NCBI GenBank assembly: GCA_011033025.1
Contig: WFMF01000357.1
Span: forward strand, 1-64,000
Source: Beroe forskalii
Taxonomy: Eukaryota > Ctenophora > Nuda > Beroida > Beroidae
Direction of reading: 5' to 3'
Length of the DNA: 64,000 nt
Below, piece by piece: positions 790 through 49,600 of the stretch (the stretch's first letter is position 1; each line of letters starts with the position of its first letter). Both the position numbers and the translations under genes were made by a program. The notes beneath the pieces were generated by a model. It searched no databases. It saw only the letters and a program-made list of their open reading frames with translations, and was not told where the DNA came from.

Positions 790-1205
790 GGCATAATAGG
801 CCGCGAACTTTAGTTCGCCGCGAACTCGGGCGAACTCAGGCGAACCCGCGCGAACTCCGCGCGAGTTCGCCAGCGTTCGCCGACAGTTCGCCAATTTTTT
901 TCCTTGGCGAACTCCGCTGAAGTTCGCCGAAAGTTCGCCAGACGTTCGCCGAACTCCGGGCGAACTCGAGCGAACTCAGGCGAACCCGCGCTGAGTTCGC
1001 CGCAACTGCGAACAAGTTCGCCGCGAACTAGTTCGCAGCGAACTTAAAATTTTGGTTGGCGAACGATTTTTTGGGGTTCGCGGCGGACTCGTTCGCGGCG
1101 AACTTGTTCGCGGACTCGTTCGCGGCGAACTTGTTCGCAGCGAACTAGTTCGCGGCGGACTAGTTCGCCGCGAACTACTTTTTTCTAAGTTCGCGGCGAA
1201 CTCTT

Positions 1206-1252
1206 GTCAGACGTTGTCTGACCCCTTCGCCTTCGGCGGGCGCGCCTGACAA
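1206..1252. repeat. Hairpin module shared between elements
   Basis: GTCAGACGTTGTCTGAC (1206-1222) is a perfect 7-bp stem with a GTT loop. It is followed by a C-rich stretch and a second short inverted match ending CCTGACAAG. The same module in reverse orientation occurs in element B (5117-5174), although the rest of A and B is unrelated. Confidence 0.75.
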
Positions 1253-3545: not shown

Positions 3546-4089
3546 GATTTGAGGGTAAAATGGTAGTACAGGAACATGGATGAATTTAGCCCCCAATAGC
3601 CCCCATTAGCCCCCATGGGGGCTACGTGAGGGGCTAATAAGGGGCTAGTGAGGGGCTAATTTAAGCATTTAGCCCCGTGGTAGCTAAAATAGCGCGGGGC
3701 TATGGTGGGGGCTATAAGCGCCCACGGTGAGGGGCTATTTGCCCCCATTAGCCCCCATTAGCCCTCACTGCCCCTTCACTAGCCTCACGTAGCCCCACGG
3801 GGCTAAAATGAAGGTTAGTTTTATTGCCCCATTAGCCCCCCACAGAAAAAATTAGCCCCATTAGCCCCCCACGATTTTAAGTTGTGAATTTCCATGTGGG
3901 GGCTATTGCGCCCATATGAGGGGCTATTGCTCCCATATGAGGCTATTAAGCCCATATGAGGGGCTAATTTGGTTGGTTTTGTAAAATCAGCTAGCCCCCA
4001 CCAGTAGTAAATTTTGTGCTAAAATGCAAATTTTCAAATCGTATTAAAAATTGCAGACCACTAGCCCCCACCGTTACAATATACCCCTA

Positions 4090-4845
4090 AATAGGTTCCT
4101 GCCCTTACTAGCTCTTATTGGCCTTATTGCCCTTATTAGCCTTATTTATTGGCCTCACTGGCCCCTTTGGCCCTCACCCTTATTGGCCCCTCACTGGCCT
4201 CACTGGCCCCTCACTGGCCCTTATTGGCCCTCACTGGCCTTATTGGCCCTTATTGGCCCTCTGGCCTTATTGGCCCTTATTGGCCCCTCACTAGCCCTCA
4301 CTAGCCCTTATAGCCCCTTATTGGCCTTATTGGCCTCACTAGCCCTCACTAGCCCTTATTAGCCTCCTGGCCCTTATTAGCCTCACTAGCCTCACTAGCC
4401 CCTTATTGGCCCCTCACTAGCCCCTATTAGCCCTTATTAGCCCTTATTAGCCCCTTATTGGCCTCACTGGCCTTAATGGCCCCTCTGGCCTTATTGGCCC
4501 TCACTAGCCCCTTATTAGCCCCTCACTGGCCCCTTATTGGCCTCACTAGCCCCTTATTGGCCCTCCTGGCCTTATTGGCCCTCACTGGCCTTATTGGCCC
4601 CTCACTGGCCCTTATTGGCCCCTCACTAGCCCCTTATTGGCCCTCACTAGCCCCTTATTGGCCCCTCACTGGCACTTAATGGCCCCTCACTGGCCATATT
4701 TGCCCCTCACTGGCCCCTTATTGGCCCTCACTGGCCCCTTATTGGCCCCTCACTGGCCCTCACTGCCCCTTATTGCCCCTTATTGGCCCCTCACTTTCAT
4801 TGGCCCTCACTGGCCCTTATTGGCCTTATTAGCCCTCACCTGCCC
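4090..4845. repeat. Element B left-arm satellite (TGGCC form)
   Basis: Alternating CCTTATTGGCC and CCTCACTGGCC units, mostly with GGCC where the right arm has AGCC. Long frames here (for example 4051-5017) read as Leu/Pro/Trp/Thr repeats and are not genes. Confidence 0.85.
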
Positions 4846-5116
4846 CTCATGCATTCAGATCATAGTGCAGTTACTACGTCACGTGATATATCACGTGACA
4901 TTTCACGTGGTAGACCACAAGAAATATTACGTGAACTCTAGTTCTCTCCAGTGCAGATTATATCCAGTGCTGATTATATCCAGTGCCGATTTTATCCGAT
5001 GCTCCCTTGAATCGTAAATAAATACTAATAAGTAAAATTCGTGCGCGGCTCTTCCAATTCCATTTTGATCCTTGAAGCAGAAAAATACCATTACTGATAC
5101 TAATCCTTTATATTGT

Positions 5117-5235
5117 CAGACACGCCCCCGCCGGCCCGCCAAAAGCAAAGGTAAAGGGTCAGACAACGTCTGACAGACTCTTAGAGTCTGTCTTGTAGTG
5201 CGCAGAGGGCCTCCGGGCCTGGCATAACGCCAGGC
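5117..5235. repeat. Shared hairpin module in element B
   Basis: GTCAGACAACGTCTGAC (5158-5174) is the reverse complement of the A-family hairpin and is preceded by the same GCCC/CCG/AAGGG surroundings. A related hairpin with an ATAAC loop, GCCTGGC-ATAAC-GCCAGGC, lies at 5217-5235. Confidence 0.7.
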
Positions 5236-5515
5236 AAGGATTAGGTTTTACACCGCTAGCATTGCTTCTAAACCTAACCATAGCTCTAACCAAAACCCTA
5301 ACCTTAATGCAGAATGCAAACCCTTCCTAAGCAAAGCCTGCATACTCATAGTATAGGTTTGCGTTTGCTAAAAGTAAACATGTATCAGTATATCCCTGTG
5401 TGCGTTGCGTGCTTCCCCCAGAGAAGCGTGGCGCAGGCGCCTGTACGCATATGCGTACCTATAAGTATAAGGGCTTAGGTGTATGCACGCGTGTGGCTTC
5501 CCCTTACCAGCGTAT

Positions 5516-5640
5516 GTCTCGCATGTAAACACTAAACAGGGCTGAGTGACCTCACAGATCTAAAGGTCAAGTTTTTGTATCCTCAACCTAACTGTGATCC
5601 TAAGCAAAACACAAATCATAATCCTTACCCTAAACATTGC
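5516..5640. mobile_element. Degenerate copy of the GTCTCCC MITE
   Basis: A diverged left half of the MITE family seen intact at 5709-5941 and 32306-32526. It starts GTCTCGCATGTAAAC and continues GAGTGACCTCACAGATCTAAAGG. Confidence 0.55.
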
Positions 5641-5708
5641 TGTAGGATTTTACCCTACCCTCCGCCGCGCACACATCGTTTGCAACACGACCCTCCAAAC
5701 TTCGGTAT

Positions 5709-5941
5709 GTCTCCCATATAAACGGCTCTGAGTGACGTCACAGATCTAAACGTCAATTTTTCTGTATCCTAAACCTAACCATAGCCTAACCAAAACCCTA
5801 ACCTTAATCCTAACACTAACCCTAACAAATCCTGACCCTAACCCTAGTCCAGAGTCCTTAAAGCGATAGGTGCGCGTAATTATATTTTTCTGAGTGACGT
5901 CATTGTCATGGATAATGAAGGCTCCCGTTTATATGGGAGAC
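5709..5941. mobile_element. GTCTCCC MITE, copy nested in element B
   Basis: A 233-bp element with TIRs GTCTCCCATATAAACGG / CGTTTATATGGGAGAC. Near each end it carries TGACGTCA, the palindromic cAMP-response-element core. Its middle is made of CCTAACCCTAAC-like repeats. Homologous to 32306-32526 and partially to 13091-13304 and 6013-6075. No clear TSD was found. Confidence 0.8.
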
Positions 5942-6012
5942 CAACCCAAACTTCAGAGTGTTGCGCGCTAGGGATGGGAGAAATCCATCAAAACATTGTA
6001 TTTGTAAATCCG

Positions 6013-6075
6013 GCCCTAATCCTAACCTCTTAAAGCGCTAGAGTGACGTCATTGTGATAGATAGTGAAGGCTCGT
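6013..6075. mobile_element. Fragment of the GTCTCCC MITE
   Basis: TTAAAGCGCTAGAGTGACGTC followed by CATTGTGATAGATAGTGAAGG matches the right end of the intact copies. Confidence 0.5.
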
Positions 6076-6474
6076 ACTCGAAGTTTGTGATGCCCCTGGT
6101 CACTGGTTAGGGCTAGACTAGCCCCTAACCAGTGACCACGGGCATCACAAACTGAAAAAAACACGTCTGACAATATAAAGGATTAGTATCAGTAATGGTA
6201 TTTTTCTGCTTCAAGGATCATGTCAAAGTGGAAGAGCCGCGCACGAATTTTACTTATAGTTATAAGTATTTATTTACGATTCAAGGGAGCCTCGGATAAA
6301 ATCGGCACTGGATATAATCAGCACTGGATATAATCTGCACTGGATATAATCTGCACTCGAGAGAACAAGAGTTCACGTGATATTTCTTGTGGTCTACCAC
6401 GTGATATATCACGTTATATATCACGTGACGTAGTAACTGCACTATGATCTGAATGCATGAGGGGCAGGTGAGGG

Positions 6475-8010
6475 GCTAATACGAGGCTAATAAGGGGCTA
6501 GTGAGGGGCTAATAAGGGGCTAGTGAGGGGCTAATAAGGGGCTAATAAGGGGCTAGTGAGGGGGCTAGTGAGGGGCCAATAAGGGCTAGTGAGGGGGCTG
6601 AGTGGGGGGGCAAATAAAGAGGCTAGTGAGGGCTAGTGAGGGGGCAATAAGGGGCTAGTGAGGGCTAATAAAGGGGCTAGTGAGGGGCTAATAAGGGGCT
6701 AATAAAGGGGCTAATAAAGGGGCTAATAAGGGGCTAGTGAGGGCTAATAAGAGGGCTAGTGAGGGCTAATAAAGGCTAGTGAGGCCAATAAGGGGCTAGT
6801 GAGGGGCTAATAAGGGGCTAGTGAGGGGCTAATAGGGGGGCTAGTAAGGGGGCTAATAAGGGGCTAATAAGGCCAATAAGAGGGGGCTAGAGGGGCTAAT
6901 AGGGGCTAGTGAGGGAGCTAATAAAGGGGCTAGTGAGGGGGCTAATAATGGGCTAGTGAGGGGCTAATAAGGGGCTAGTGAGGGGCTAATAAGGGGCTAG
7001 TGAGGGGCTAATAAGGGGCTAATAAAGGGCTAATAAAGGGCTAGTGAGGGGCTAATAAGGGGCTAATAAGGGGCTAGTGAGGGGCTAGTGAGGGGCTAAT
7101 AAGGGGCTAGTGAAGGGCTAATAAGGGGCTAGTGAGGGGCTAATAAGGGGCTAGTGAGGGGCTAATAAGGGGCTAGTGAGGGGCTAATAAAGGGCTAGTG
7201 AGGGGCTAATAAGGGGCTAGTGAGGGGCTAATTAGGGGCTAGTGAGGGGCTAGTGAGGGGCTAATAAGGGGCTAGTGAGGGGCTAATAAGGGGCTAATAA
7301 GGGGCTAGTGAGGGGCTAATAAAGGGGCTAGTGAGGGGCTAATAAAGGGGGCTAGTAAAGGGGCTAGTGAGGGGCTAGTGAGGGCTAATAAGGGGGCTAA
7401 TAAGGGGGGCTAGTGAGGGGCTAATAAAGGGGGCTAATAAGGGGGCTAGTGAGGGGCTAGTGAGGGCTAATAAAAGGGGCTAGTGAGGGGCTAATAAGGG
7501 GCTAGTGAGGGGCTAGTGAGGGGCTAATAAGGGGCTAGTGAGGGGCTAGTGAGGGGCTAATAAGGGGCTAGTGAGGGGCTAATAAGGGGCTAGTGAGGGG
7601 CTAATAAAGGGCTAGTGAGGGGCTAATAAGGGGCTAGTGAGGGGCTAATTAGGGGGCTAGTGAGGGGCTAATAAAGGGGCTAGTGAGGGGCTAATAAAGG
7701 GCTAGTGAGGGGCTAATAAGGGGCTAGTGAGGGGCTAATAAAGGGGCTAGTGAGGGGGCTAGTAAGGGGCTAGTGAGGGGCTAATAAAAGGGGCTAATAA
7801 AGGGGCTAGTGAGGGGGCTAATAAAGGGGCTAATAAGGGGGCTAGTGAGGGCTAATAAAGGGGCTAGTGAGGGGCTAATAAGGGGCTAGTGAGGGGCTAG
7901 TGAGGGGCTAGTGAGGGGCTAATAAGGGGCTAGTGAGGGGCTAGTGAGGGGCTAATAAGGGGCTAGTGAGGGGCTAATAAGGGGCTAATAAGGGGCTAGT
8001 AAGGGGCAGG
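6475..8010. repeat. Element B right-arm satellite (TAGCC form)
   Basis: About 1.5 kb of tandem 11-mers GGGGCTAGTGA and GGGGCTAATAA, usually alternating to form a 22-bp higher-order unit, with G-run and A-run length variants. Confidence 0.9.
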
Positions 8011-8562
8011 AACCTATTTAGGTTTTTTGTTACGGTGGGGGCTAGTGGTCTTGCAATTTTTAATACGATTTGAAAATTTGCATTTTTAGCACAAAATTTA
8101 CTACTGGTGGGGGCAAGCTGATTTTGCCAGAAACCAACCAAATTAGCCCCTCATATGGGCGCAATAGCCCCTCATATGGAAGCAATAGCCCCTCATATGG
8201 GCGCAATAGCCCCATGGAAATTCACAAACTTAAAATCCGTGAGGGGCTAATGGGGCTAATTTTTCTGCCAAGGGGCTAATGGGGGCTAATAAGGGGCTAA
8301 CCTTCATTTTAGCCCCGTGGGGCTACGTGAGGGGCTAGTGAGGGGCTAGTGAGGGGCTAATGGGGGGCTAATGGGGCTAAATAGCCCCTCACCGTGGGCG
8401 CTATAGCCCCCACCATAGCCCCCACGCTATTTTAACGCCCACGGGGGCTAAATGCTAAAATTAGCCCCTTATTAGCCCTCACGTAGCCCCCATGGGGGCT
8501 AATGGGGGCTATTGGGGGCTAAATTCATCCATGTTCCTGTACTACCATTTTACCGATTTGAG

Positions 8563-12036: not shown

Positions 12037-12634
12037 TATAATTTGGCTAAAAAATGGGTGGACTTAACTCCGCCGTGGACCCGCTGCGGACCCGGTGGAC
12101 CCGCTGCGGGTCCGCCGCGGACTCCACTAAAGTCCACCATAAAAATTTTTTGGTGGACTTTGGTGGATCCGCAGCGGACTTTTCAAAACTCCGCCGCGGA
12201 GTGGTGGGTCCGCTACCAGGTCCGCTCGGGCTCCGCCGCGCACTGGTGGACAGTCCACCGAAAAAGTCCACCAAAAAAGTCCACCAGGGAAAAAGTCCGC
12301 CGTGGATTGGAGTCCACCGCGGAGTTTTTGTCCACCGGTGGACTCCCCAGGTGGACTCCACCAGCGGACTTTAGTCCACCGGCGGAGTCCACAGGTGGAG
12401 TCCACCAGCGGAGTCCACAGGTGGATTCCACCAGCGGAGTCCACAGGTGGAGTCCACCAGCGGAGTCCACAGGTGGAGTCCACAGCTGGAGTCCACAGGT
12501 GGAGTCCAACTCCACCAGCGGAGTCCTCTCGCGGATAACATTTTTGGCCCCGAAATTCCATGTTTTTCTGGTGAAATAGCCGTCAAATCGCTCAAAATTT
12601 CCATGAATTGCGGACGTCCGCATTATGTCCGATA

Positions 12635-13085
12635 TACCTTATCGGACATAATTATCACGGACTTTAGTTTCACGGACATAAAACTTCACTGACATTAATA
12701 TTCACGCTCAATCAAGCCACTTCAAATTTCAAAAAATCTTCAAAATTATCGGCTCGATTTCTCCCATTTTGAGTTGAATTTTTGAATTGAAGATTTTTAA
12801 TATATTTTCTTTAATAAATATGATAAATTTCCATATTGCAGGTACTAAGCATTTAAAAGAAGCATAATTTCCTTACAAATTCTATTATTTGTGCATTTCA
12901 AGAGAGGAGGTCAGAAATTTTGCGTCTCTACCTATAAATTTTAGGACAAAATTCCGGATTTAATTTTCACGGACCTGAATATTACGGACAATAGTATCAC
13001 GGACAAAAATTTCACGGACATTAATATTCAAGCTGAGGTGCTCAGCGTGAATTTAATGTCCGTGATAATTATGTCCGATAAGGTA
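12635..13085. mobile_element. 451-bp TIR element, third nesting level in C
   Basis: TIRs TACCTTATCGGACATAATTA / TAATTATGTCCGATAAGGTA, continuing into CACGGAC. The interior has several CACGGACA repeats and AT-rich sequence. No TSD was recognised. It lies between the arms of the nested element. Confidence 0.65.
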
Positions 13086-13090
13086 AACCG

Positions 13091-13304
13091 GACTGAGTGA
13101 CGTCACAGATCCAAAGGTCAATTTTCTCTATCCGAAACCTTACCGAGACTCTTACCAAAACCCTTACCTTAATCCTGACCCTAAACCTAACAAATCCTGA
13201 CCCTAATCCCGACCATAACCTTCAAAGCGCTACATGCGCTTGATTATATTTTCTGAGTGACGTCATTGTCATGGAAAATGAAGGTTCTCGTTTACATGGG
13301 AGAC
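13091..13304. mobile_element. GTCTCCC MITE, copy nested in element C
   Basis: It begins at GACTGAGTGACGTCACAG, so the outer left TIR is missing, and ends TTTACATGGGAGAC. It shares the CCTAACC middle and both TGACGTCA sites with 5709-5941. Confidence 0.7.
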
Positions 13305-14952
13305 GTATTGGCCAGAATCCCCCAGGACCCTCTCAGATTTGGGCTAATATCAACTTTTTGGTGGTAATCTAATTTTATCCCCATTTGTCTTAAAAAAGAG
13401 GTGTGACATGTTTATCTTTGGTCAAATCCTTAATTTCACGTCCGCACCGTACACACCCTTTCTCCAATTCCAGCTGGAAAAAGCATTGAAATTAGGGTTT
13501 CTGGATTGCGGACGTTTGCGGACAAGGGGAGGAGGGGTCTGAAATGGCCAAATTTTGCGGACCTCCTTTGGATGGCCCCCCTGTTGATTTTGAAATATCG
13601 ATCAAATCTGAGAGGGTCTACCCCTCCCCCCTCATTGCGACGCCCTTTATGGATGGTCCTTTGAAATATCGACCGAATCTGAGAAAGCTATGTGTACACA
13701 TGGCACTCCTTTCCAAAAACCATACAGCCCTAATGGCGGAGTCCACTGGCAGAGTCCACTGGCGGATTCCATCAGTGGAGTTTACTGGTGGACTCCACCG
13801 GCGGAGTCTACTGGCGGAGTCCACTGGCGGATTCGAGTCCACTGGTGGAGTTGAGTCCACTGGCGGAGTCGAGTCCACCAGTGGAGTCCACTGGTGGAGT
13901 CCGCCAGTGGACTCGACTCCTCAGTGGACTCCACCGGTGGACTCCACTGACTCCGCGGCGGACTTACCTCCACAATTATTTTAGTCCACGGTGGACTTCT
14001 TTGGTGGACTTTTTCGGTGGACTGTCCACCAGTGCGCAGCGGAGCCCGAGCGGACCCGCAGCGGACCCACCACTCCGCGGCGGAGTTTCAAAAAGTCCGC
14101 TGCGGTAGGGTGCGCCCTTTTTTCAAAGTTTTTTAGGCACTTTGACTCGATTGTAGATCTCAGTGAGCTGATCACGAGGATATCAAGTTTTTTGAAATTG
14201 GACAATGTCTTCCTTTGCCTCTGGGCGTTTTTCTGTTTCGTGACGTCACATCACGTGACCTGTCACGTGATCCGCCTGCTAGTACTTTGTGCGCGCTCAG
14301 GATTCCGCGCGCGCAATTGTAATTCTATGCGCGTTCGCGGATCTGAGTTGTCCGTGTCATTCTGTACTGTATATGGCATTGGCAAGACTTATCTCTATTG
14401 AATAATGGAATTTAAATTTCTGAACCAATCTATGATAGACGCAGATAGCAAATAATTTAAGAATCAGCAAGTTTTGCCATTGCCATTTTCAAGCTGATAA
14501 TTGCGATTACTTGGAAAATGGAAGCTTAAGTTTATACATTGAGAGCTGGGAAGTACATTAGTACTATACAGGGTTAAAATTGTACATCCCAATCAGGAGT
14601 CAGGGTGCATGTGACTGCTGAGTGTCCCCATTCAGATCACATGACAAAGCATAGGACACTCTCCCTCAACAAATGACCGAGCAGAACAAGGTTCTCGTGA
14701 CTGATAGAGGAGGAAGCAAGCAGTATCTCTTTGACCATGAAGAGATCCAGTCAACAGTGACCTATAATATATAGTTTGTTATATTTTAACGAGTAGGCCC
14801 TCTACCTAATTCTATTTCATCGTTCGGCAGTCTTGAAGCTTATTCCGATCCCGAGATCTGTGAAATGTGAAACACTAAAAAAATCCGTTTTATTGTTTTG
14901 TTCTTTTTAATCATGAGTATGGAAGTATCAGTCATGAACTTGAAGGGATTAT

Positions 14953-14969
14953 GTCTGGCGTTGCCAGAC
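14953..14969. repeat. GTT-loop hairpin in C, left arm
   Basis: GTCTGGC-GTT-GCCAGAC, a perfect 7-bp stem. Compared with the A-family hairpin, stem positions 4 and 6 and both partners have changed so that pairing is kept. Confidence 0.7.
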
Positions 14970-15529
14970 TCCCTGGGTCTGATAAAGTCGGACAAAGCGG
15001 ATTCAAAACGACGGAATGTCGCTCGGAATCATGGGAATCGGATCTAATCCCATAGTCAGGGATTAGACCTGTACTTCTGCAGTTGTCCGAGATTGCGAAT
15101 TCGTACTCTCCTGATTTAGATGATTGGGAAACGGCCAAGATAACGGTATGAAAGTTCCTCAGGATTGTGAACCGTCGCTCAAAATCTGGGCACCAATCTA
15201 CTAATCTACGATAAACGCAGATAACAGATGATTTTAGAATCAGCAAGTCTTGCCAGTGCCATTTTCAAGCTGATTATTGCGATTACTTGGAAAATGGAAG
15301 CTTATAAGTTTATACATTGAGAGCGAAGAAATACATTAGTACTATACAAGGTTAAAATTGTACAATGTACATCCCAATCAGGAGTCGAGTGTCCCCAGTC
15401 AGATCACATGACAAAGCAAGGGACACTCTCCCTCAACCAATGATCGAGCAGAACAAGGTTCACGTGACTGATAGAGAAGGAGGAAGCAAGCAGTATCTCT
15501 TTGACCATGAAAAGATCACGGAACCGACA

Positions 15530-17280
15530 TTTCATCTCGCGACACTTCATCTCACGACATTTCATCTCCGACACTTCTTCTCAGAGTACGAAATTTCATC
15601 TCGTACTGTTAATCGATTGTATCTTAAAGTACGACGTTTGATCTCCAGGGTGCGACGTTTCATCTTAAAGGGTACGACAATCCACTCTCTTACTGGAACT
15701 TGATTGTAATTGTATACTGTAAAGTACGACATTTGATCTCCAGATTGCGGGGTTTCATCTCCAAGGCTACGACACATCATCTCGGGGAATGACACCTTTT
15801 ATCAGGATAGGAAACATGATCTCAGGGTACGACAATTCATGTCAGGGTACGACACTTCGTCTCAGACTACGAAATTTCATCTCTGGATAAGGCACTTCAT
15901 CTCAGACTGCGACACTTCATCTCAATGATAGACACTTCATCTCAAGATACGACGCCCATCTCAGCACGACAACTCAGGGTACGACACTTCATCTCATGGA
16001 GTGGAACGACACTTCGATCTAGGACTGCGATTTCATCTCTGGCATGCCATCATCTCAGGGCACAATACTTCATCTCAAGGTATGACATCTCATCGTTTTT
16101 ACGACACTTCATCTCAGACGACGACATTTCATCTCAACACTTCATCTCTGACTGCGATCCACTTCATCTCTGGGTGAAATTCATCTCTGGGCACGATTCA
16201 TTTAGGCACAGCACTTCATATCAGACTGCGACACTCTCTCTGGTGGGTACGATACTTCATCTTTTGACTACTACACACTTCATCTCAGGGGTAAGACACT
16301 TCCCAGAGATGGAGTGTTGTGCCTGAATGAAGTTCCTAGAGATGAACGTCCCAGTCTGAGATGAAATGCAGTCTGAGATGAAGTGTCGTTCTCGAGAAGA
16401 AGTTTCGTACCCTGAGATTAAGTGTCGTTCCCAGGAGATGAAGTAATGCAATCTGAGATGAAGCGGGAGATGAAATGTCGTACCTGAGATGAAGTGTCTT
16501 ATCCTGAGATGAGGTGCCGTACCTAGAGGAAATGTCACAGTCTGAGATGAAGTTTCGTACACAGAGATGAAATGTCGCAGTCTGAGATGGAGTGTTGTAC
16601 CCAGAGATGATTTATGTCGCAGTCTGAGATGAAGTGTCGTACCTAGAGATGAAATAACGTACCCGCCAAATATGTAGTGTCGAAGTCTGAGATGAAGTGT
16701 CGTACCCTGAGATGAATTGTCGTACCGAGAGATGAAATGTCGCAGTCTGAGGTGGAGTGTCGTACCCTAAGACGAAATGTTGTACCTGAGAGCGAAGTGT
16801 CGTACCCTAAGATGAAGTTTCGTACCCTGAGATGAAGTGTTGTACCCAGAGATGAAATGTCGCAGTCTGAGATGAAGGGTCGTACACTGAGATGAAGTGT
16901 CGTACGTTGAGATGAAGCATCTTACCCTGAGATCAAGTTTCGGACCCTGAGATGAAGTGTTGTACCCAGCGATGAAATGTCGCAGTCTGAGATGAAGGGT
17001 CGTACACTGAGATGAAGTGTCATCCCCAGAGATGAAGTGTCGTACCCTTTGAGATGAAACCCCGCAATCTGGAGATCAAATGTCGTACTTTACAGTATAC
17101 AATCAAGTTCCAGTAAGAGAGTGGATTGTCGTACCCTTTAAGATGAAACGTCGCACCCTGGAGATCAAACGTCGTACTTTAAGATACAATCGATTAACAG
17201 TACGAGATGAAATTTCATTACTTTGAGAAGAAGTGTCGGAGATGAAATGTCGAGATGAAGTGTCGCGAGATGAAATGTCG
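15530..17280. repeat. Palindromic satellite at the centre of C
   Basis: Units of about 20-22 bp. On the left they read CGACACTTCATCTCAGGGTA; from about 16300 they flip to GAGATGAAGTGTCGTACCCT. The inversion point lies near CTTCCCAGAGATGG. Frames through it are repeat artefacts. Confidence 0.9.
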
Positions 17281-17842
17281 GTTCCGTGATCTTTCATGGT
17301 CAAAGAGATACTGCTTGCTTCTTCCTCCTTCTCTATCAGTCACGTGAACCTTGTTCTGCTCGGATCATTGGTTGAGGGAGAGTGTCCTTGCTTTGTCATG
17401 ATCTGACTGGGGACATCGACTCCTGATTGGGATGCTAATTTTAACCTTGTATAGTACTAATGTATTTCTTCGCTCTCAATGTATAAACTTAAGCTTCCAT
17501 TTTCCAAGTAATCGCAATAATCAGCTTGAAAATGGCACTGGCAAGACTTGCTGATTCTAAAATCATCTGTTATCTGCGTCTATCATAGATTAGTAGATTG
17601 ATATCAGAAAATTTCATGGTGCCCAGATTTTGAGCGACGGTTCACAATCCTGAGGAACTTTCAGTTTCATACCGTTATCGTGGCCGTTTCCCAATCATCT
17701 AAATCAGAAGAGTACGATTCGCAATCTCGGACAACAGAAGTACAGGTCTAATTCCTGACTACAGACTATGGGATTAGACCTCGATTCCCATGATTGCGAG
17801 CGACATTCCGTCGTGTTGAATCCGCTTTATCAGACCCAGGGA

Positions 17843-17859
17843 GTCTGGCAACGCCAGAC
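17843..17859. repeat. GTT-loop hairpin in C, right arm
   Basis: GTCTGGCAACGCCAGAC, the mirror copy of 14953-14969. Confidence 0.7.
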
Positions 17860-18866
17860 ATAATCCCTTCAAGTTCATGACTGATACTCCCATACTCATG
17901 ATTAAAAAAAGAACAAAACAATAAAACGGATTTTTTAGTGTTTCACATTTCACAGATCTCGGGATCGGAATAAGCTTCAAGACTGCCGAACGATGAAATA
18001 GAATTAGGTAGAGGGCCTACTCGTTAAAATATAACAAACTATATATTATAGGTCACTGTTAATGGATCTCTGCTTGGTCAAAAACGCTAGACATGGGACC
18101 TTTAAGTTCCTCCTCTATCAGTCAATGAGAACCTTGTTCTGCTCGGTCATTTGGTGAGGAGAGTGTCCTCTGCTTTGTCATGCCCATGATCTGACTGGGG
18201 ACACTCAGCAGTCACATGCACCTGACTCCTGATTGGGATGTACAATTTTAACCCTGTATAGTACTAATGTACTTCCAGCTCTCAAATGTTAACCCCTGCA
18301 TAGCACCAATGCAGTCCCAGCCTCCGTAATTATCAGCTTGAAAATGGCAATGGCAAACTTGCTGATTCTTAAATTATTTGCTATATGCGTCTATCATAGA
18401 TTGGTTCAGAAAATTCCATTATTCAATAAAGATAAGTCTTGCCAATGCCATAGACAGCACAGAAATCAGAATGACACGGACAACTCAGATCCGCGAACGC
18501 GCATAGAATTACAATTGCGCGCGCGGAATCCTGAGCGCGCACAAAGTACTAGCAGGCGGATCACGTGACAGGTCACGTGATGTGACGTCACGAAACAGAA
18601 AAACGCCCAGAGGCAAAGGAAGACATTGTCCAATTTCAAAAAACTTGATATCCTCGTGATCAGCTCACTGAGATCTACAATCGAGTCAAAGTGCCTAAAA
18701 AACTTTGAAAAAAGGGCGCACCCTACCGCTGCGGGTCCACCAAAGTCCACCAAAAAATTTTTATGGTGGACTTTAGTGGAGTCCGCGGCGGACCCGCAGC
18801 GGGTCCACCGGGTCCGCAGCGGGTCCGCGGCGGAGTTAAGTCCACCCATTTTTTAGCCTATAATTT

Positions 18867-20360: not shown

Positions 20361-22275
20361 AAACACCCTGTAAGGTGAATTAGGTATTGGACTGATCCAG
20401 ATGCTTGTACACCAGTTATCTTGGTGGGGTTAATTTGGATACCTTACCATTCTATTATTGCATAGATGCACTGAAATTCAACAATTTAGAGAATTTTACT
20501 ATTAAGAGAATTATTATGAATGAAGATTATTAGCAAATGCTATTTCACCTTGTAGAATTGTAGAATTGTAGAAAATTTTTGACAGAGCATCAACTCAAAT
20601 ATTCAAACTAATTTCACCATATTATATCACTGTATTAAGCACCCTTATATCGAGGTACCCACAATAAATTAGTAATGCCTCACATTCATGTGGAGCTACA
20701 TTGCAAATAATTTAATAAAAATAACTTAACAACAGAATATGAACAATAATAGCAAAGTATTTGATAGAAACGGTTAATAATAACAAGATTAAAAACATAA
20801 TTCATGGTAATAAGTTATGGAAATTATATTTAAAGTAATAAATAACATTGCAGTAACAGTACTGAATAGTATCCTGAATGAAATAAGATTAAAAATAATA
20901 TTTAAAAGTATGTTTGAAGTGATTGATCATTGATGCAGTGAAACACAAATCTCAAAAATGATATCAAACCCACACACTATGTATACCACTAATCGACTGT
21001 CAGTTTCGAAATTAAATATTTCTTCTTCAGGATCTCCACATAGTGTAACACAACATTCTGAGATTATGATGTGAAAACCAATGATATGATTTATAAGGTG
21101 AAACAAAATCAAAATGAATATCAAAATACCAAGTTGAACCAATGATATGAGAGAAAGTATATATGTTATTAAAAATTCAAGCCCTAAAATGTGGTGAAAA
21201 CTAAACATTCAAATATATACAAAAGAATTTCAAAGAAAACAGATCTAAAATGGAATTAATAAACCCTTAGTATAAGCAAAAGACTATGAATAATGAAAAA
21301 AGGTCATAGGCACTGGATCCTAAGATCCAGTGATCGATTAGCCAAAGTTCTAAATGACTCAAGAACCCCACCTGGTCTTTCCTTATTCAGACCAAATGGC
21401 TGAATAGTGAGCAGCTTGTTGACCCACTTCTGTTCAGCAATGTCCAAGTTTCTAGGGCTCACCTCTAGAACTGAGAACGTGTAGTTGCTATTGAAGGAGT
21501 CAACTGAATGCAGATGGTGAATTTCCTGTAGGTGTTCAGCAAGGGTTCTTTCATCTGACTCACTGATGCCATTATCTTCATAGCCCAGATGAGACCTATG
21601 ACCTGCTATTCTAGTCTGAAGCTTATTTGTAGACTTGCCCGTGTACTGTTTGTTGCAAAGTAAACACTCAGCACAGTAAATGATATTTCTTGACTTGCAA
21701 TTTCCTTCTGGGAGCTTGAATAATTTCCTGTACATGAAGAGACCAAAGAATCAGTATTGGACATCATTGGACAACAAGTACATGGTCGGCCTTTTTTCCT
21801 AGACCTATTCTGAGTTATGAGGGGGGTGCAAGATTTTGGGCATAATAGGCCGCGAACTTTAGTTCGCCGCGAACTCGGGCGATCTCGGGCGAACCCGCGC
21901 GAACTCCGCGCGAGTTCGCCAGCGTTCGCCGACAGTTCGCCAATTTTTTTCCTTGGCGAACTCCGCTGAAGTTCGCCGAAAGTTCGCCAGACGTTCGCCG
22001 AACTCCGGGCGAACTCGAGCGAACTCAGGCGAACCCGCGCGGAGTTCGCCGCAAACTGGCGAACAAGTTCGCCGCGAACTAGTTCGCAGCGAACTTAAAA
22101 TTTTTGGTTGGCGAACGATTTTTTGGGGTTCGCGGCGGACTCGTTCGCGGCGAACTTGTTCGCGGCGGACTCGTTCGCGGCGAACTTGTTCGCAGCGAAC
22201 TAGTTCGCGGCGGACTAGTTCGCCGCGAACTACTTTTTTCTAAGTTCGCGGCGAACTAGTTCGCGGCGAACTCTT

Positions 22276-35345: not shown

Positions 35346-36338
35346 GTTTGAAGTGATTGATCATTGATGCAGTGAAACACAAATCTCAAAAATGATATCA
35401 AACCCACACACTATGTATACCACTAATCGACTGTCAGTTTCGAAATTAAATATTTCTTCTTCAGGATCTCCACATAGTGTAACACAACATTCTGAGATTA
35501 TGATGTGAAAGCCAATGATATGATTTATAAGGTGAAACAAAATCAAAATGAATATCAAAATACCAAGTTGAACCAATGATATGAGAGAAAGTATATATGT
35601 TATTAAAAATTCAAGCCCTAAAATGTGGTGAAAACTAAACATTCAAATATATACAAAAGAATTTCAAAGAAAACAGATCTAAAATGGAATTAATAAACCC
35701 TTAGTATAAGCAAAAGACTATGAATAATAAAAAAAAGGTCATAGGCACTGGATCCTAAGATCCAGTGATCGATTAGCCAAAGTTCTAAATGACTCAAGAA
35801 CCCCACCTGGTCTTTCCTTATTCAGACCAAATGGCTGAATAGTGAGCAGCTTGTTGACCCACTTCTGTTCAGCAATGTCCAAGTTTCTAGGGCTCACCTC
35901 TAGAACTGAGAACGTGTAGTTGCTATTGAAGGAGTCAACTGAATGCAGATGGTGAATTTCCTGTAGGTGTTCAGCAAGGGTTCTTTCATCTGACTCACTG
36001 ATGCCATTATCTTCATAGCCCAGATGAGACCTATGACCTGCTATTCTAGTCTGAAGCTTATTTGTAGACTTGCCCGTGTACTGTTTGTTGCAAAGTAAAC
36101 ACTCAGCACAGTAAATGATATTTCTTGACTTGCAATTTCCTTCTGGGAGCTTGAATGAATTTCCTGTACATGAAGAGACCAAAGAATCAGTATTGGACAT
36201 CATTGGACAACAAGTACATGGTCGGCCTTTTTTCCTAGACCTATTCTGAGTTATGAGGGGGTGCAAGATTTTGTACCTGTACTATCCCCTGATGAAAGTG
36301 CCAGACACTTTCTTTTGAAGATCATGTCACCCAAATTT
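35346..36338 (-). mobile_element. Penelope-like element copy 2 (5'-truncated)
   Basis: The same element as 20909-23638 but without the foldback insertion. One frame (36266-35739, 175 codons) encodes CTCCPMMSNTDS, then the GIY-YIG region NIIYCAECLLCNKQYTGKS with LQTRIAGHRSHLG and the C-terminal tail. The CxC/CxxC cysteines before the core suit the zinc-binding linker of Penelope endonucleases. Flanks GATTAAAAAT (left) and GATTAAGAAT (right) look like a ~10-bp TSD with one mismatch. Copy 2 of the segmental duplication lacks the element. 36266-36273 is the empty A2 site. Confidence 0.9.
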
Positions 36339-36628
36339 TTGATTAAGAATAAATTTCTTTTCCTTTCCTGTAGCTTATGAATTAAGAGCAATTCTCAACC
36401 TTGTTTTTGACAACCCTTTTCTCAACTTTGAATGTTAATTGCAGAAAAAGTAAAGCAATAGCATCAATTCGAATTTTGAATCCAGTAGAATCCTTTTCCT
36501 TACCACACTTCAAACATTGCAGTGTTTCAACTTAGGTACAGTTTTTGCATACAGTGGAAGGTACTGAGCAATTCCCGCTCTTTCCTTTATATTAAAGATT
36601 TATTTATTATACTAATTAACTATCTGAG

Positions 36629-39600
36629 TCCCATGTCAAATTATCCTAGTTTGTCTCTTCGAAGTCATTCTGTCCCACAGTCTTCTGCTGATTCTTTTGT
36701 GAAGCCTAATGAGGATGCAAAAGTATGGTTTGGATCCTTTTACAATAAAGTGAAGCAAACAATTGTTGATTCTGCACTATTTGGGTTCAAGTGAGTCAAT
36801 GCAACTACATTAAACATTTTCTCTTATTATCTTTACACTATAAAGATGCTGTGATTTATTTCATTACTGAGCTGAATTTTAGCCAGGTTTGGTACATCCT
36901 ATATTTGGTATATTGGGTATGATTATGCAGCTTGTCAGTTGGCATATTTCGATTTTTAATTACACATTACATTGAAGTATTTAAACTATACTGAGGTCTG
37001 CAATTGTACCAACCTAGAAATTTACCAAACCTACTTAATTAATTAATTACTTAAAGTTCAGCATTGTCAGCCAGCCATGTTGCTAGGATTTATAAACACC
37101 TGTATCTAAAACCTGTATCAGTGGTAGTACAACCTGGATATTTAATGACCAATTGGTAGTCAATCATGAAACTGATTTTCAAAAATTAATACCTTTATTA
37201 ATGGGTTCAGTTTTAAATCACCAAACACTGTGTAATAATGCGACAACCTAGTCAGCAATCACATGTTTTTATACCTTGTGCCTCCCATCTAGTAGGTATT
37301 TGAATCCTGATCATTTTGCATAAATAATATTTCACAATACACATATTATGTACTAGATATTATGTTCTTCATTGAAATTCAGTAATACCCCACAACACAC
37401 CCTCCTTCTATCTTTCTCACCTCCTCCTCAATTGATCTCACAGCGGCACAGCACCAAACTCATGCTAAGATCATCACTATTTATGGTAACAAATAGTTCC
37501 AGTGAAGTCCATTCTTCATGGGTAGTCAGGGTAGTTGACTACATAAAATAACTAAGCAGTTTGCTAAATACTTTGCAATGTAGTGCAACCCAGTTCATTA
37601 TTATATGTCTGGGTTCCAAAAACAGAAAGAGAGGCAGAAAGATATCATAAAACATGACTGGGGCACAAGTATCATGTTATCATATCATTTTATTTTAATT
37701 ACATATTCACACAGGGAAATATGTCTATTGATACAAAACGTAGCAGAATTATTTCTTCCTGTGATGCAGCCAGCAGTAGTTAGGAATTTAGCTTCATTGT
37801 TTATATTGAACCTATTCAATTGGTCTTGAATATCTTGATGCCAGTTGTAGTACAACTAGGTTGCTAGGTACCAAACGACCGGTTACCTTTTCTCAATAAA
37901 TCCGGTTACGGTTTCGGTTCGCTAAAAACGCCGGTTAACCGGTATTTCGGTTACGGTTCGGTTAACCGACCGATTTCACCAAACGGTTAATTGCGAAATC
38001 AGAATATTCGGTTACGGTTTCGGTTTCGGTTGGCTGAAAACACCCGGTTAACCGGTATTTCGGTTTCGGTTCGGTTAACCGGTCGTTTCCTATTGCTAGG
38101 TTGCTTTAGTTTTAAATACATACAACATGACATACAAACATGACATACAAACATGACATACAAACATGACATACAAACATGACATACAAACATGACATAC
38201 AAACATGACATACAAACATTACATGGCTGCAGTAAAACATGTAAGGGTCTGTTTACATAGGATTCATATGGCTCACATGTCCTGAAGTAGTCAGCACAAT
38301 GCTCAGTAGTAAGAACAAGGCTCAGTAGTCAAAAATTGCATTAAATCGATCAGAAGAACTAAGTTCATGCTGGTGAGATTGAGAGAATGCTCTAAGCTTT
38401 TATTATGAAGGGCTTGTTGGTTTTGGTACATTCTAGAATGTCACAGGTGTTCATTTAGCTATTTTCACCTGTGATCTGTGTGCATGGAAGTGATTTAGGG
38501 ATCAAGCCAGTTACTCTCTAAATTATTCAATATTAATAAATAATAATATATGTGATTGGAAGCTGAGGAATGTGGTATAGATACAAAGCTTTGATTCATC
38601 TTCACCTATCACACTCATGGCTCACAATCAGCTTCCTATGCTGTGACATCTAGATGATTATTTACCTCCTTTATCATAATATGTTGAAGCTTCTGGTATA
38701 TTCTGAGGTCAAGTGCCAAGCTGAATTAAAGATAAGTTGAATGGGTTAACCATTAATTAAGGACTAATAAGGCTGTAGTATTTTCTGAATACCCTGACAT
38801 TGAAAATAAGGTTTTCCTTCTCTAATTTTTCATGTCATATGCATTTTTACAGGCAAGAAGCATCAGAAAGATTAGGACCAATAGTATGTGGTTCATGGCA
38901 TCCATCTATATCAGACCAGATAGCTTTTGGGATGTCAGATGGGGTAGTTCAAGTAGTCATTCAACCATCAACCAAGCCTGTGCTCCTGAGACACCAACAT
39001 CAGAAGAACATAAGATGTATTGCATGGCAGCCTAATTCTATTAAATCATTAACTGTTGGGTCATCTGCTGGGATATTTCTTTGGGAGGTGAGATCTATGA
39101 ACTTATAATGTTTGATGTCCTTCATCAACTTTCTGATTATATTGTAGCAGTAAATCTGTGAATCTGTACATTTTATGTTTAACACCCTTGCTAGAAATTA
39201 TATATCATTGTAGCCATAAATGTTCTATCCATTAATATTGATCAGATCCATCAAAAACATGCCACAATTCATTGATTGAGAAAGCATTGTCAAACAAATT
39301 ATATATCATTGTAGCCATAAATGTTCTATCCATTAATATTGATCAGATCCATCAAAAACATGCCACAATTCATTGATTGAGAAAGCATTGTCAAAACATA
39401 GACAATCTACGTATTCTCTCCTTTTTTCCAGGTTATCTCACAGAAAGGCTCTAGCATGCCATCCCGGGCAACTCTTCATCCAACTCCCTCCCCTGTGACC
39501 TCTCTTTCATATGCTCCTGATGGAAGGTTGTGTCTTGCGACCACAGTATCGTCCCTGCTCATGCTGGACTGTGTGACTGGCGAAGCTCCGCTTATCCTCA

Positions 39601-43674: not shown

Positions 43675-46600
43675 TCCCATGTCAAATTATCCTAGTTTGT
43701 CTCTTCGAAGTCATTCTGTCCCACAGTCTTCTGCTGATTCTTTTGTGAAGCCTAATGAGGATGCAAAAGTATGGTTTGGATCCTTTTACAATAAAGTGAA
43801 GCAAACAATTGTTGATTCTGCACTATTTGGGTTCAAGTGAGTCAATGCAACTACATTAAACATTTTCTCTTACACTATAAGGATTTGTTAATAACTTATA
43901 TGAGCAGTAAGTTGTACATTGGGCTCACAATTAGGAGCTTATTAGATAAATTAATTAATTAATTATAAAGATGCTGTGATTTATTTCATTACTGAGCTGA
44001 ATTTTAGGCAGGTTTGGTACATCCTATATTTGGTATATTGGGTATGATTATGCAGCTTGCCAGTTGGCATATTTCGATTTTTAATTACACATTACATTGA
44101 AGTATTGAAACTATACTGAAGTCTGCAATTGTACCAACCTAGAAATTTACCAAACCTACTAAATTAATTTCTTCTTTGTAGAACAAATACAGTCATCTTT
44201 GTAGTCAAGCCACAGAACTCTCCAACAACTCCAACCATAGTCTTTGATGGGATCCATGAAAGAAATGCCTTCATCAGAGAGCTAGGCAGATCCAAATAAA
44301 GCATGAGACACCAAAAATGATATGGTGTTATGAAAGCTAACACTGTGGCACACGGACTTGCGACCGTGTTGTGGGGTTGAATGCATTTGACGGGCGCCCA
44401 ACGCTCCCCCAACCACAAGATGTAGTGTGTTAGTTTCAGAAGCTCCAAGTTCATCAAGGAAATTAAGTTCATCAATATCTTTATCCAGTGTAGGGAAGAT
44501 AAAGTTCCATCTGGTCCAGACAAGATCAGAAGATCAAGTCAACTGTGTTTACTTGTAAACATAAATAAGGCTGCGACTCCGAAGAGACGAGAATGAACCA
44601 GAGAAACAATGGGACTCCATTCTGGGCGACTTTGCCCTTGCTTGCAAGGTTAAAATATCTTCTTTGTAGAACAAATACAGTCATCTTTGTAGTCAAGCCA
44701 CAGAACTCTCCAACAACTCCAACCATAGTCTTTGACGGGATCCATGAAAGAAATGCCTTCATCAGAGAGCTAGGCAGATCCAAATAAAGCATGAGACACC
44801 AAAAATGATATGGTGTTATGAAAGCTAACACTGTGGCACACGGACTTGCGACCGTGTTGTGGGGTTGAATGCATTTGACAAGCGCCCAACGCTCCCCCAA
44901 CCAAATTAATTAATTACTTAAAGTTCAGCATTGTCAGCCAGCCATGTTGCTAGGATTTATTAACACCTGTATCTAAAACCTGTATCAGTCGTAGTACAAC
45001 CTGGATATTTAATGACCAATTGGTAGTCAATCATGAAACTGATTTTCGAAAATTAATACCTTTATTAATGGGTTCAGTTTTAAATCACCAAACACTGTGT
45101 AATAATGCGACAACCTAGTCAGCAATCACATGTTTTTATACCTTGTGCCTCCCATCTAGTAGGTATTTGAATCCTGATCAGTTTGCACAAATAATATTTC
45201 ATAATACACTCAGTTTTTTTTATAAGAAACTTATTGAAATCCTAGGCTACAAGTTTCTTATTTTTTCACGATTTTGAGCCTAAAAGTTTCTTAATCGGTT
45301 TCTTAATTCTACATACCGACATACCGTAGGTACAGCAAAATGTCTACGAAATTTCCAACATATGAACCTACTGTGTTCGATTAGAATCGAACCTACTGAT
45401 ATTTTCAGTTAAATTATACACTTTTAAGCATGTACCTATCTTAAAAGATTTGTGCAGCTGTATACAATAATGTTCAGGGATCTTCATCAAATGTTCTTCC
45501 AAAAAAATTTGAAATTTTGAAATTTAGATAATTTCTAAATCCTATAATGCTTGGAACTTTTGGAAATAGATATGGAACTGTAATTTAGTGTCCTGTCGCA
45601 ACAACAATTTCTAAATTTCTGTTTTGTGCTTTAGTATCTGGCATGTTACTTTAAACCGAAAAATCATGAAAGGTTCATTTTCTAAATTTCTATTCTATAT
45701 TATGATCAATTATCACATATCCAGTGTAATACTGTAATAGAAGTTCAATAGAAGTACTAGATTAGTTTCGAATGTTCACAATCAAAAAATGGGGGTCTGG
45801 GGGGCGCTTAGCCCCAGAAGCCAAAATATCATGTTAAAAGAATTTCAGTTGCAATAGGATTTTATACACAAATTTCAAAAATCCTAGGCTAGAAGTTTCT
45901 TAATTTCTTAATTGTAAATCAGTGAAGTTTCTTAATTTTTCCGAAATTCTAGGCTAAGTTTCTTAAATTTTCGGAAATCCTAGGCTAAGTTTCTTATAGA
46001 CAGTTTCTTATAAAAAAAACTGAGTGTACACATATTATGTACTAGATATTATGTACTTCATTGGAATTCAGTAATACCCCACAACACACCCTCCTTCTAT
46101 CTTTCTCACCTCCTCCTCAATTGATCTCACCGCCGCACAGCACCAAACTCATGCTAAGATCATCACTATTTATGGTAACAAATAGTTCCAGTGAAGTCCA
46201 TTCTTCATGGGTAGTCAGGGTAGTTGACTACATAAAATAACTAAGCAGTTTGCTAAATACTTTGCAGTGTATATTATAATGGGCATGGACGCGCACCGTC
46301 GCGCCTAATATAAATAAGTGTGGCGGTGTGTGTCCATGACCCATGTCAATATTTTATGGTTTATTGGTTTTATCCTGATTCAAGTGAAGTGTACGACCAC
46401 CCGGAATAGGTTTTCACCCATGCCCTCCTGATCGGTTGTGCGCGTCGGTCGGTTGCTGCGCTCCCAAGTGCGGCAAGTGCGCATGCTGGGTCGGTCATAC
46501 GGGCTGCACCAGCGTGCGGCAGCAGTCACGGCCGCCAGCGCTTGGGCCGCGCCAGTTGGGCATACAGAGCCCACCGTCCATGCCCGGTGGGTGCGGTGTT

Positions 46601-49600
46601 GGTCGCGCGTCGGTGGGCTCGGCCAGTTTCGCGTGGCCGGTGGCATTTGTTTTTGTGCGCGCAGTGCGCGGCAACGGGCTAGCGCGCTGGCTGGACGGAT
46701 AGCATGGGCTGCACTTAAAGTGAGATAATAAACAGTACAATACGGCTAATTTAATAATTGCAATCGTGCAACCATGGATTACCTTAGGCTGCTATCGGGT
46801 CGACATGCAAAAAGCGCCAAAAATAAAGTACTGTACTGTTTAAAGCATGTTTGGGTTATTTATTTAAAGGGTCAAGGTGAGGAATTATTTGTGTAGCTTA
46901 TTTTTATTGTATTCCAAATTGATGATTAAAAATAAATTTCTTTTCCTAAAAATTTCTTTTCCTGCTGAAGAGAAACCCAGTTAATTATTATATGTCTGGG
47001 TTCCAAAAACAGAAAGAGAGGCAGAAAGATATCATAAAACATGACTGGGGCACAAGTATCATGTTATCATATCATTTTATTTGACTTACATATTCACACA
47101 GGGAAATATGTCTATTGATACAAAACGTAGCAGAATTATTTCTTCCTGTGATGCAGCCAGCAGTAGTTAGGAATTTGGCTTCATTGTTTATATTGAACCT
47201 ATTCAATTGGTCGTCAACATAGCAATATCTTGATGCCAGTTGTAGTACAACTAGGTTGCTAGGTTGCTTTAGTTTTCAATACATACAACATGACATACAA
47301 ACATGACATACAAACATGACATACAAACATGGCATACAAACAATGACATACAAACATTACATACAAACATGACATACAAACATGACGGTAAATTGAGCGA
47401 TCCGTCGAGGCCAGTATCACGCCAGTATCGCGCCAGTATCAGGCCAGTACCACGCCAGCATCACGCCAGTATCGCGCCAGTATCAGGCCTACCTCACGCC
47501 GTTATCGCGCCAGTAGCACGCCAGTTGCGCGCCAGTAGCACGCCACTAGCACGCCAGTATCGCACCAGTATCGTGCCAGTATCACGCCAGTACCACGCCA
47601 GTATCACGCCAGTATCGCGCCAGTCGACACTTACTTTCAGCCAGGACGCCAGTAGCACGCCAGTATCAGATCATATACTGGCGTGTTACTGGCGTCCTGG
47701 CTTAAAGTTAGGTTCGACTGGCGCGATACTGGCGTGCTACTGGCGTGCTACTGGCGTGCTACTGGCGTGCTACTGGCGTGCTACTGGCGTGATACTGGCG
47801 CGATACTGGCGTGCTTCTGGCGTGCTACTGGCGTGCTACTGGTGTGCTACTGGCGCGCAACTGGCGTGCTACTGGCGCGATACTGGCGTGATACTGGCGC
47901 GATAACGGCGTGAGGTAGGCCTGATACTGGCGCGATACTGGCGTGGTACTGGCCTGATACTGGCGCGATACTGGCGTGATACTGGCCTCGACGGATCGCT
48001 CAATTTACCTGGAGATACAAACATGACATACAAACATTACATGGCTGCAGTAAAACATGTAAGGGTCTGTTTACATAGGATTCATATGGCTCACATGTCC
48101 TGAAGTAGTCAGCACAATGCTCAGTAGTAAGAACAAGGCTCAGTAGTCAAAAATTGCATTAAATCGATCAGAAGAACTAAGTTCATGCTGGTGAGATTGA
48201 GAGAATGCTCTAAGCTTTTATTATCAAGGGCTTGTTGGTTTTTGTACATTCTAGATAAGGTGTTCATTTAGCTATTTTCACCTGTGATCAGTGTGCATGG
48301 AAGTGATTTAGGGATCAAGCCTGTTACTCTCTAAATTATTCAATATTAATAAATAATAATATATGTGATTGGAAACTGAGGAATGTGGTATAGATACAAA
48401 GCTTTGATTCATCTTCACCTATCACACTCATGGCTCACAATCAGCTTCCTATGCTGTGACATCTAGATGATTATTTACCTCCTTTATCATAATATGTTGA
48501 AGCTTCTGGTATATTCTGAGGTCAAGTGCCAAGCTGAATTAAAGATCAGTTGAATGGGTTAACCATTAATTAAGGACTAATAAGGCTGTAGTATTTTCTG
48601 AATACCCTGACATTGAAAATAAGGATTTCCTTCTCTAATTTTTCATGTAATATGCATTTTTACAGGCAAGAAGCATCAGAAAGATTAGGACCAATAGTAT
48701 GTGGTTCATGGCATCCATCTATATCAGACCAGATAGCTTTTGGGATGTCAGATGGGGTAGTTCAAGTAGTCATTCAACCATCAACCAAGCCTGTGCTCCT
48801 GAGACACCAACATCAGAAGAACATAAGATGTATTGCATGGCAGCCTAATTCTATTAAATCATTAACTGTTGGGTCATCTGCTGGGATATTTCTTTGGGAG
48901 GTGAGATCTATGAACTTATAATGTTTGATGTCCTTCATCGACTTTCTGATTATATTGTAGCAGTAAATCTGTGAATCTGTACATTTTATGTTTAACACCC
49001 TTGTCCCTTGCTAGAAATTATATATCATTGTAGCCATAAATGTTCTATCCATTAATATGGGGGGGGGCCAACCTCGAAAAACCCCGGGTGGATATAAAAA
49101 TTGGCAAATGGGGGTTTAATTTTTCGGGGTTTATGAGGGTTTAAGGAGGCTAAACTGATAAAAATAGCCGTTTTTCGGTCTGAAAATTCGATTTTCTCTC
49201 AAAATGGTACTACTTTAGTTGTGGATTTTCGGCTCTTTTCTCAAATGGTACCATATTTGTTGAGGATTTTTGGCACTTTTCTAAAATGGTACCATTTTTG
49301 TTGAGGATATTCGACCCTTTTCTGAAATGGTACCATTTTTGTTGAGGAATTTCTGTCCTTTTCTGAAATGGTACCATTTTTGTTGATGATTTTCGACCCT
49401 AATCTAAAATGGTACCATTTTTGTTTAGGATTTTCTACCCTTTTCTGAAATGGTACCACTTTTGTTTAGGATTTTCAACCCTTTTCTGAAATGGTACCAT
49501 TTTTGCTGGAAATTTTTTTTTGGCACTTTCCTGAAATGGTACCATTTTTGTTGAGGATTTTCGACCCTTTTCTGAAATGGTACCATTTTTGTTGAGGAAT

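Follow-up and report, generated by a model that had tools for sequence, protein, structure and literature searches.

The window examined here, positions 1 to 64,000 (forward strand) of contig WFMF01000357.1 in the 216 Mb, 1134-contig assembly of the ctenophore Beroe forskalii (GCA_011033025.1), contains five foldback elements of four families, which we term A, B, C and D; all have long inverted arms of tandem repeats and a variable middle. We consider it likely that A–D are non-autonomous foldback cut-and-paste transposons of the Merlin superfamily, moved in trans by a Merlin transposase. As no transposase was found in A–D, and as their tips are not those of the Merlin lineages from this genome described below (M1 and M2), we infer the enzyme from the GG tips, the 8 bp target-site duplications (TSDs) and the common build. 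A first-pass annotation of the window, made from the letters alone, had proposed that a single transposase recognizes only the tip, whilst the arms can acquire and amplify whatever tandem repeat they meet.

All five copies were found where that annotation had placed them, each with an exact inverted tip. A1 occupies positions 790–2176 (tip GGCATAATAGGCC; arms of 10/20 bp and then 15 bp repeats) between copies of GTGATCTT at 782–789 and 2177–2184, and A2 occupies 21839–23475 between copies of AGATTTTG at 21831–21838 and 23476–23483; the middles of both are telomere-like GGGTTAGGGTTT arrays (1304–1666 and 22374–22929). B (3554–8554; tip GGTAAAATGGTAGTACAGG; arms of the 10/11 bp repeats GGGGCTAATA/GGGGCTAGTGA) is bounded by GATTTGAG at 3546–3553 and 8555–8562, and C (12045–18858; tip GGCTAAAAAATGGG; outer 11 bp and inner 13/26 bp arm repeats; a composite middle with more inverted repeats) by TATAATTT at 12037–12044 and 18859–18866. 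Each of these TSDs is exact (8/8), as annotated for A, B and C. D (47387–48009; tip GGTAAATTGAGCGATCC; arms of the 11 bp repeat GCCAGTATCAC) has no TSD in the window, so that four of the five window copies possess one, and it lies inside a 13 bp tandem array. For A2 and D, paralogous sites without the element were identified. A2 interrupts a repeat that contains a GIY-YIG-like frame and is present twice in the window (21606–21838 and 35739–36281); by its motif we take this repeat to be Penelope-type. Positions 36124–36341 (+ strand) are 99 % identical to the joined flanks of A2 across the junction. The segment surrounding D recurs at about 37.5–39.0 kb; the two copies of this duplicated segment (the other at 46.7–48.9 kb) are about 96–98 % identical in long matches, only one of them contains D, and the D-less site at 38118–38349 (+ strand) is 97 % identical to the joined flanks.

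In order to follow the families beyond the window, tips were counted genome-wide, at ≤ 2 mismatches for A (63+60 places), C (100+105) and D (319+326) and as exact matches for B (14+13), with the reversed pattern as a control that gave 0 for every family. The places listed were 100 of 123 for A, 27 of 27 for B, 100 of 205 for C and 100 of 645 for D. Within 98 fetched tip loci both tips were found for 37 copies, counted apart from the window's own A1, A2, B, C and D, and 32 of these paired copies have an exact 8 bp TSD (A, 12/12; B, 3/3; C, 6/8; D, 11/14), the remainder being L043 and L067 (C) and L083, L095 and L098 (D). An additional B copy outside the 37 (L006), with an insertion in its right tip, has a TSD matching at 7/8 positions. 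The exact duplications annotated for A–C thus recur elsewhere in the genome, and D belongs to the same 8 bp class on the basis of its 11 copies of 14 elsewhere; different TSD lengths, which by the annotation's own criterion would have told against its reading, were not observed. The TSDs are mildly A/T-rich at positions 2–7 (0.72 versus 0.59 for the window; 39 TSDs), a bias too weak, as a shared target preference, to tell enzymes apart.

A pointer to the enzyme comes from Merlin elements of the same genome, in which 35 matches to the domain DDE_Tnp_IS1595 (Merlin) were found. M1 was traced from a Merlin copy in L099 (C188) with a 297 aa frame (Pfam E-value 8.4 × 10−20). In a DNA search with its surroundings, the C531 and C263 copies start at the same base, and in both C263 and C390 the left 185 bp recur in inverted orientation at the right end. 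The M1 tip, GGCAGTATCCAAGTTGCCCGACACAC (starting GGCAGTATCCAAG), was derived from the ends of two copies, and both M1 TSDs that were read are of 8 bp. One M1 element (C263:69513–71458) has GG tips, a TSD of AGGGATCG and a DDE_Tnp_IS1595 match in a 165 aa frame, all three features thus co-occurring in a single copy; another (C171:115742–117659) has the tips and a TSD of GGCTTTTG with only part of the gene, and in a third (C171:120483–123218) M1 tips stand on both sides of an open 308 aa Merlin frame. The arms of M1 are about 185 bp long and consist of 21 bp tandem repeats, those of the C263 and C171 copies being different but related (score 71). The M1 tip occurs at 92+92 places (≤ 2 mismatches) versus 7 body matches among those listed, which indicates that copies without the gene abound, although sister families may account for part of the 184. 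Among relatives of the M1 protein that bear the name of an organism, one from Mnemiopsis leidyi ranks highest (83 % identity over 43 % of the query), as would suit a ctenophore host; a search with a second protein yielded no named animal.

The second lineage, M2 (C2, L105), was read as one tip plus gene, with the tip GGCAGTGTCCAAGCAGGCC and an 11 bp arm repeat (AGTCTCGGAGA) upstream of the Merlin match; of 35 matches in a DNA search, nine stop exactly at the first base of this tip, which is found at 10+15 places (control 1+0). M1 and M2 have 18 of 26 tip bases in common, whilst their arms (21 bp versus 11 bp repeats) score at shuffle level. Merlin elements that carry a transposase gene thus show the annotation's idea of a kept tip in front of different satellite arms, and a comparison of the two lineages, in which the tips are related but no similarity of the arms could be detected, shows that turnover is faster in arms than in tips. 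Eight of the 35 Merlin matches have an M1 tip, or else a tip or arm of M2, ≤ 3.5 kb away.

Some further features of these Merlin loci were recorded. The C188 copy of M1 is truncated where a repeat of ∼400 bp sits (L099 1939–2339), with a short (ATTGT)n at one end and at least 33 rows at 98–100 % identity; it looks like a young SINE-like (short interspersed nuclear element) family. Beside the M2 Merlin tip, 77 bp (C2:872677–872753) recur exactly, inverted, ∼13 kb away (C2:885557–885633). No recognizable tip or arm array was seen in L104, upstream of the C609 Merlin match. MULE (Mutator-like) domain matches lie ∼1.0 kb (C296:184057–185348) and ∼2.3 kb (C390:164477–167095) from an M1 tip, through nested insertion or chance.

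Under the Merlin reading, an enzyme of the DDE_Tnp_IS1595 (IS1016-related) type would act at the terminal GG and insert the element into a staggered 8 bp target, of which the observed TSD is the footprint. The tip would be held by selection, whilst the adjoining tandem repeats on its inner side are replaced and lengthened, such that sister lineages keep related tips but come to have arms in which no similarity can be detected, as is seen in the two Merlin lineages and as may apply to A–D. Each tip type would then probably be served by a matching Merlin lineage. What is known of the superfamily agrees with this: according to PMC8101967, Merlin families have 5′-GG starts and 8 or 9 bp TSDs, internal tandem repeats occur in several of them, and three ctenophores contain Merlin.

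A number of observations weigh against a Merlin mover. A tblastn search with the M1 protein in the window and the 98 loci gave nothing better than an E-value of 0.64. Likewise, Pfam scanning of ten inner A–D frames detected no transposase; these were taken from 62 frames of ≥ 85 aa in stretches inside the elements, of which the longest 30 were read, and a few may lie outside an element, as some stretches extend to the end of a locus whose second tip lies beyond it. The scanned frames instead included a reverse transcriptase (L023), a RIO domain (L098) and a zinc finger (L068). Of 26 tip bases, M1 has only 8–11 and M2 only 5–10 alike with A–D. Published Merlin terminal inverted repeats (TIRs) are given as 24–462 bp in PMC8101967, the arms of B and C being far longer. 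Finally, the genome also has 46 MULE domain matches, and many non-GG inverted pairs with 8 bp duplications were returned by a looser scan, detailed below.

An autonomous element with A–D tips, which the first-pass annotation had suggested looking for, was not recovered among the listed tip places or the sampled copies. None of the listed A, B and C tips lies ≤ 20 kb from a Merlin match or ≤ 14 kb from a MULE match, and none of the listed D tips lies ≤ 6 kb from a Merlin match; as the tip lists are partial for A, C and D, these distances are no proof that a partner is absent.

Overlapping with the Merlin reading is the narrower proposal that A, B, C and D, together with a further element, G, are all moved by the same Merlin transposase, which would read only an A/T-rich tip, GGYWWAAWW. 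We regard this as possible but doubtful. The tips of A–D all start with GG, and at the seven variable positions of the consensus A and C match at 7, B at 6 and D at 5, such that the annotated motif is a loose one. When sets of four GG starts are drawn at random from the window, about 0.5 % of trials equal the likeness of A–D (an estimate made post hoc), and A–D are in this sense more alike than expected; conversely, a fit at 6 or 7 of the 7 positions is reached by 221 of 3816 random GG starts. To see which elements emerge irrespective of the motif, inverted pairs were scanned for motif-blind in the window and loci (∼362 kb, a sample rich in A–D by design). Three additional GG elements were recovered: F (L081 650–2383; tip GGGCATAGATCC; TSD TTGTTAAC, 8/8), G (L028 153–849; tip GGTAAAAGTGTC; TSD 7/8) and H, a 243 bp inverted-repeat element in the middle of B (window 5704–5946; tips GGTATGTCTCCC / GGTTGGTCTCCC; TSD CAAACTTC, 8/8). 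G favours a common enzyme in that it starts GGTAAA like B and D, as do just 17 of 3816 random GG starts, and its tip occurs at 234+243 places genome-wide (control 1+6). Against it stand the fits of F (3), H (4), M1, M2 and a further element, E, all at 2–4 of 7, the 5/7 of D, the possibility that A and C are simply kin, and the failure to find a common autonomous partner among listed tip places and sampled copies. F, G, H, M1 and M2 nevertheless all start with GG. Amongst motif-blind rows with an 8/8 TSD and ≥ 14/16 tip bases alike, 16 are GG and 2 non-GG; under the looser criteria there were 72 rows at 8 bp (19 GG; reversed control, 19 rows), 37 at 7 bp (3 GG) and 18 at 9 bp (2 GG), and those of the looser scan's non-GG 8 bp pairs that were inspected lie mostly within arms or are palindromic. 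It thus looks as though GG with an 8 bp TSD is general and the A/T-rich motif marks a subset. What is supported of the tip-only transposase of the first-pass annotation is one kind of end (GG, 8 bp TSD) on very different arms, as in Merlin.

The annotation had named MULE enzymes beside Merlin, and a MULE transposase as mover, comparable with the Tm1 foldbacks of root-knot nematodes, would draw on the 46 domain matches mentioned above and on published MULE-type foldbacks with tandem-repeat TIRs (PMC3169594). We think it quite unlikely, given that the TSD of Tm1 is most commonly 9 bp in the same source versus 8 bp in 32 of 37 copies here, and that GG tip, 8 bp TSD and satellite arms co-occur in the Merlin elements of this very genome; of the two classes, Merlin is thus the likely one and MULE fits less well. 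The ends of P and hAT elements typically start with CA, not GG, which counts against a P-superfamily (Galileo-like) or hAT transposase. Such a mover is highly improbable: Galileo is indeed a P-superfamily foldback with internally repetitive TIRs, but its TSD is 7 bp rather than 8 bp (both from PMC3573991). That A–D are plain satellites or assembly palindromes, as only the repetitive make-up of the arms might suggest, is refuted by exact 8 bp TSDs at many unlinked places and by the empty paralogous sites of A2 and D.

The arms of the four families had been annotated as having nothing in common. In comparisons of arms, five of the six A–D pairs do not exceed their reversed-sequence controls, in agreement with this, and A–C alone does (20 versus 13). 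A and C also agree at 14 of 26 tip bases, and ∼140 bp of their arms align colinearly from the same offset in both; judged by these resemblances they may be distant relatives, in which case there would be three arm types rather than four. The evidence is weak, as 8 of 36 family pairs pass the same rough mark of 1.5 times the control score. A versus M2 gave 20 (controls 6), perhaps for compositional reasons, and kinship of the D and F arms (score 27) was ruled out by a reversed control of 26.

The suggestion that arms pick up any tandem repeat was not supported. A search for twelve arm-unit patterns (≤ 2 mismatches) covered 193 kb lying beyond the sampled A–D elements; the eleven from A–D, M1 and M2 had no match there, and that of F had nine, all in L081 and L082, where the F element sits. 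A D-arm 32-mer has 180 genome places, of which the 44 on contigs covered by the tip list were checked, and 35 of these lie ≤ 800 bp from a listed exact D tip. With the arm units of A–D, M1 and M2 unmatched in this sample and the checked D-arm places mostly beside D tips, the arms seem not to be freely captured, and look family-specific and slowly replaced rather than captured at each move. No gene conversion was seen between the left and right arms within an element: median left–right identities within copies/between copies are 0.97/0.96 for A (14 elements), 0.90/0.91 for B (4), 0.92/0.93 for C (6) and 0.86/0.83 for D (11), omitting C copies L043, L058 and L067 and D copies L083, L089, L091 and L095.

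A feature that unrelated arms may nevertheless have in common is their period. The strongest tip-proximal lag (to about base 150) is 10 in A, 11 in B, C, D and M2, 21 in M1 and 22 in F, so that a lag of 10–11 or 21–22 bp is found in seven of eight foldback-type families; G is the exception, with peaks at 18 and 43. Outside the A–D elements, 24 of 78 distinct arrays have a period of 10, 11, 20, 21 or 22, a background that itself includes foldback arms such as those of F. The difference (7/8 versus 24/78) has a probability of about 0.0015, a post hoc value that sets autocorrelation lags against Tandem Repeats Finder (TRF) periods and counts the possible relatives A and C, and M1 and M2, as independent. 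Moreover, the lag peaks of A, B and C are modest (0.36–0.43 versus medians of 0.23–0.26), repeats deeper in the arms shift to 15 bp in A and 13/26 bp in C, and two of five M1 arms have 43 as their strongest lag (21 being second), one having 42. It is conceivable that the arms offer a series of secondary binding sites in helical phase, in which case repeats of ∼10.5 bp or a multiple would be favoured and their sequence left free; tandem repeats in Galileo TIRs have been proposed as secondary transposase-binding sites (PMC3573991). That Merlin transposases here need a fixed tip plus an adjoining helically phased repeat array of any sequence is a speculative extension, which we think rather unlikely to be correct.

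The middles of the foldbacks are modular, as judged from H within B and from pieces of E, an inverted-repeat element with GGGGCCATCCATAAAGGACGTCCGC ends, in A and C loci. E was identified at L099 2433–2825, where it has no clean 8 bp TSD, and among 60 rows listed its pieces were matched in 24 of 30 A loci (L009–L038) and 14 of 30 C loci (L039–L068), their position inside the element not having been checked row by row. In another A copy (L023, 2470–3018) an RVT_1 reverse transcriptase frame (E-value 1.6 × 10−22) adjoins a telomere-like GGGTTAGGGTTT array. Elsewhere in the window, a 41 bp tandem array of 37 copies lies at 49202–50755, its unit starting with the palindrome AAATGGTACCATTT.

By description, A–D resemble the TU elements of sea urchins, which are foldbacks with tandem-repeat outer domains, modular middles and 8 bp TSDs. 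Similar in concept are Tetris and DAIBAM of Drosophila virilis, for which PMC4079207, where sea urchin foldbacks are also cited, describes TIR tandem repeats, a TIR end as the only part common to a different element, the same mover inferred for both and a contribution to satellite arrays; they differ in their ∼220 bp repeats, TSDs of 8–10 bp and a mover that was not found. Galileo is similar in its long, internally repetitive TIRs and differs in the P transposase and in the 7 bp TSD (PMC3573991), which is not that of A–D. Tm1, Mutator-type according to the title of PMC3169594, has composite TIRs with a ∼14 bp tandem motif, and transposase-bearing and MITE-like (miniature inverted-repeat transposable element) groups in one family; its mostly 9 bp TSD is not that of A–D, and its 7 bp terminal motifs are asymmetric. 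With the Merlin superfamily (IS1016/IS1595-related), A–D have in common the GG ends and 8 bp TSD, with DDE_Tnp_IS1595 genes in the same genome; the differences lie in the sampled copies, where no transposase was detected, and in the arm lengths of B and C already noted. Foldbacks with tandem-repeat arms and ends common to different bodies (PMC4079207), as well as tandem repeats in Merlin (PMC8101967), are each already in print separately, and Merlin named as a foldback mover was not found in the open-access literature searched.

Foldback elements have been known for decades, many of them without a known mover, and a genome in which several GG/8 bp TSD foldback families coexist with Merlin elements that are built alike and carry a transposase opens a way to finding one. 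If it is the period and not the sequence of the arm repeats that counts, this would also provide a testable reason for the recurrence of unrelated short satellites within transposons. Were the phased-array idea true, such elements would repeatedly give rise to new satellites with a fixed period and disperse these as mobile palindromes.

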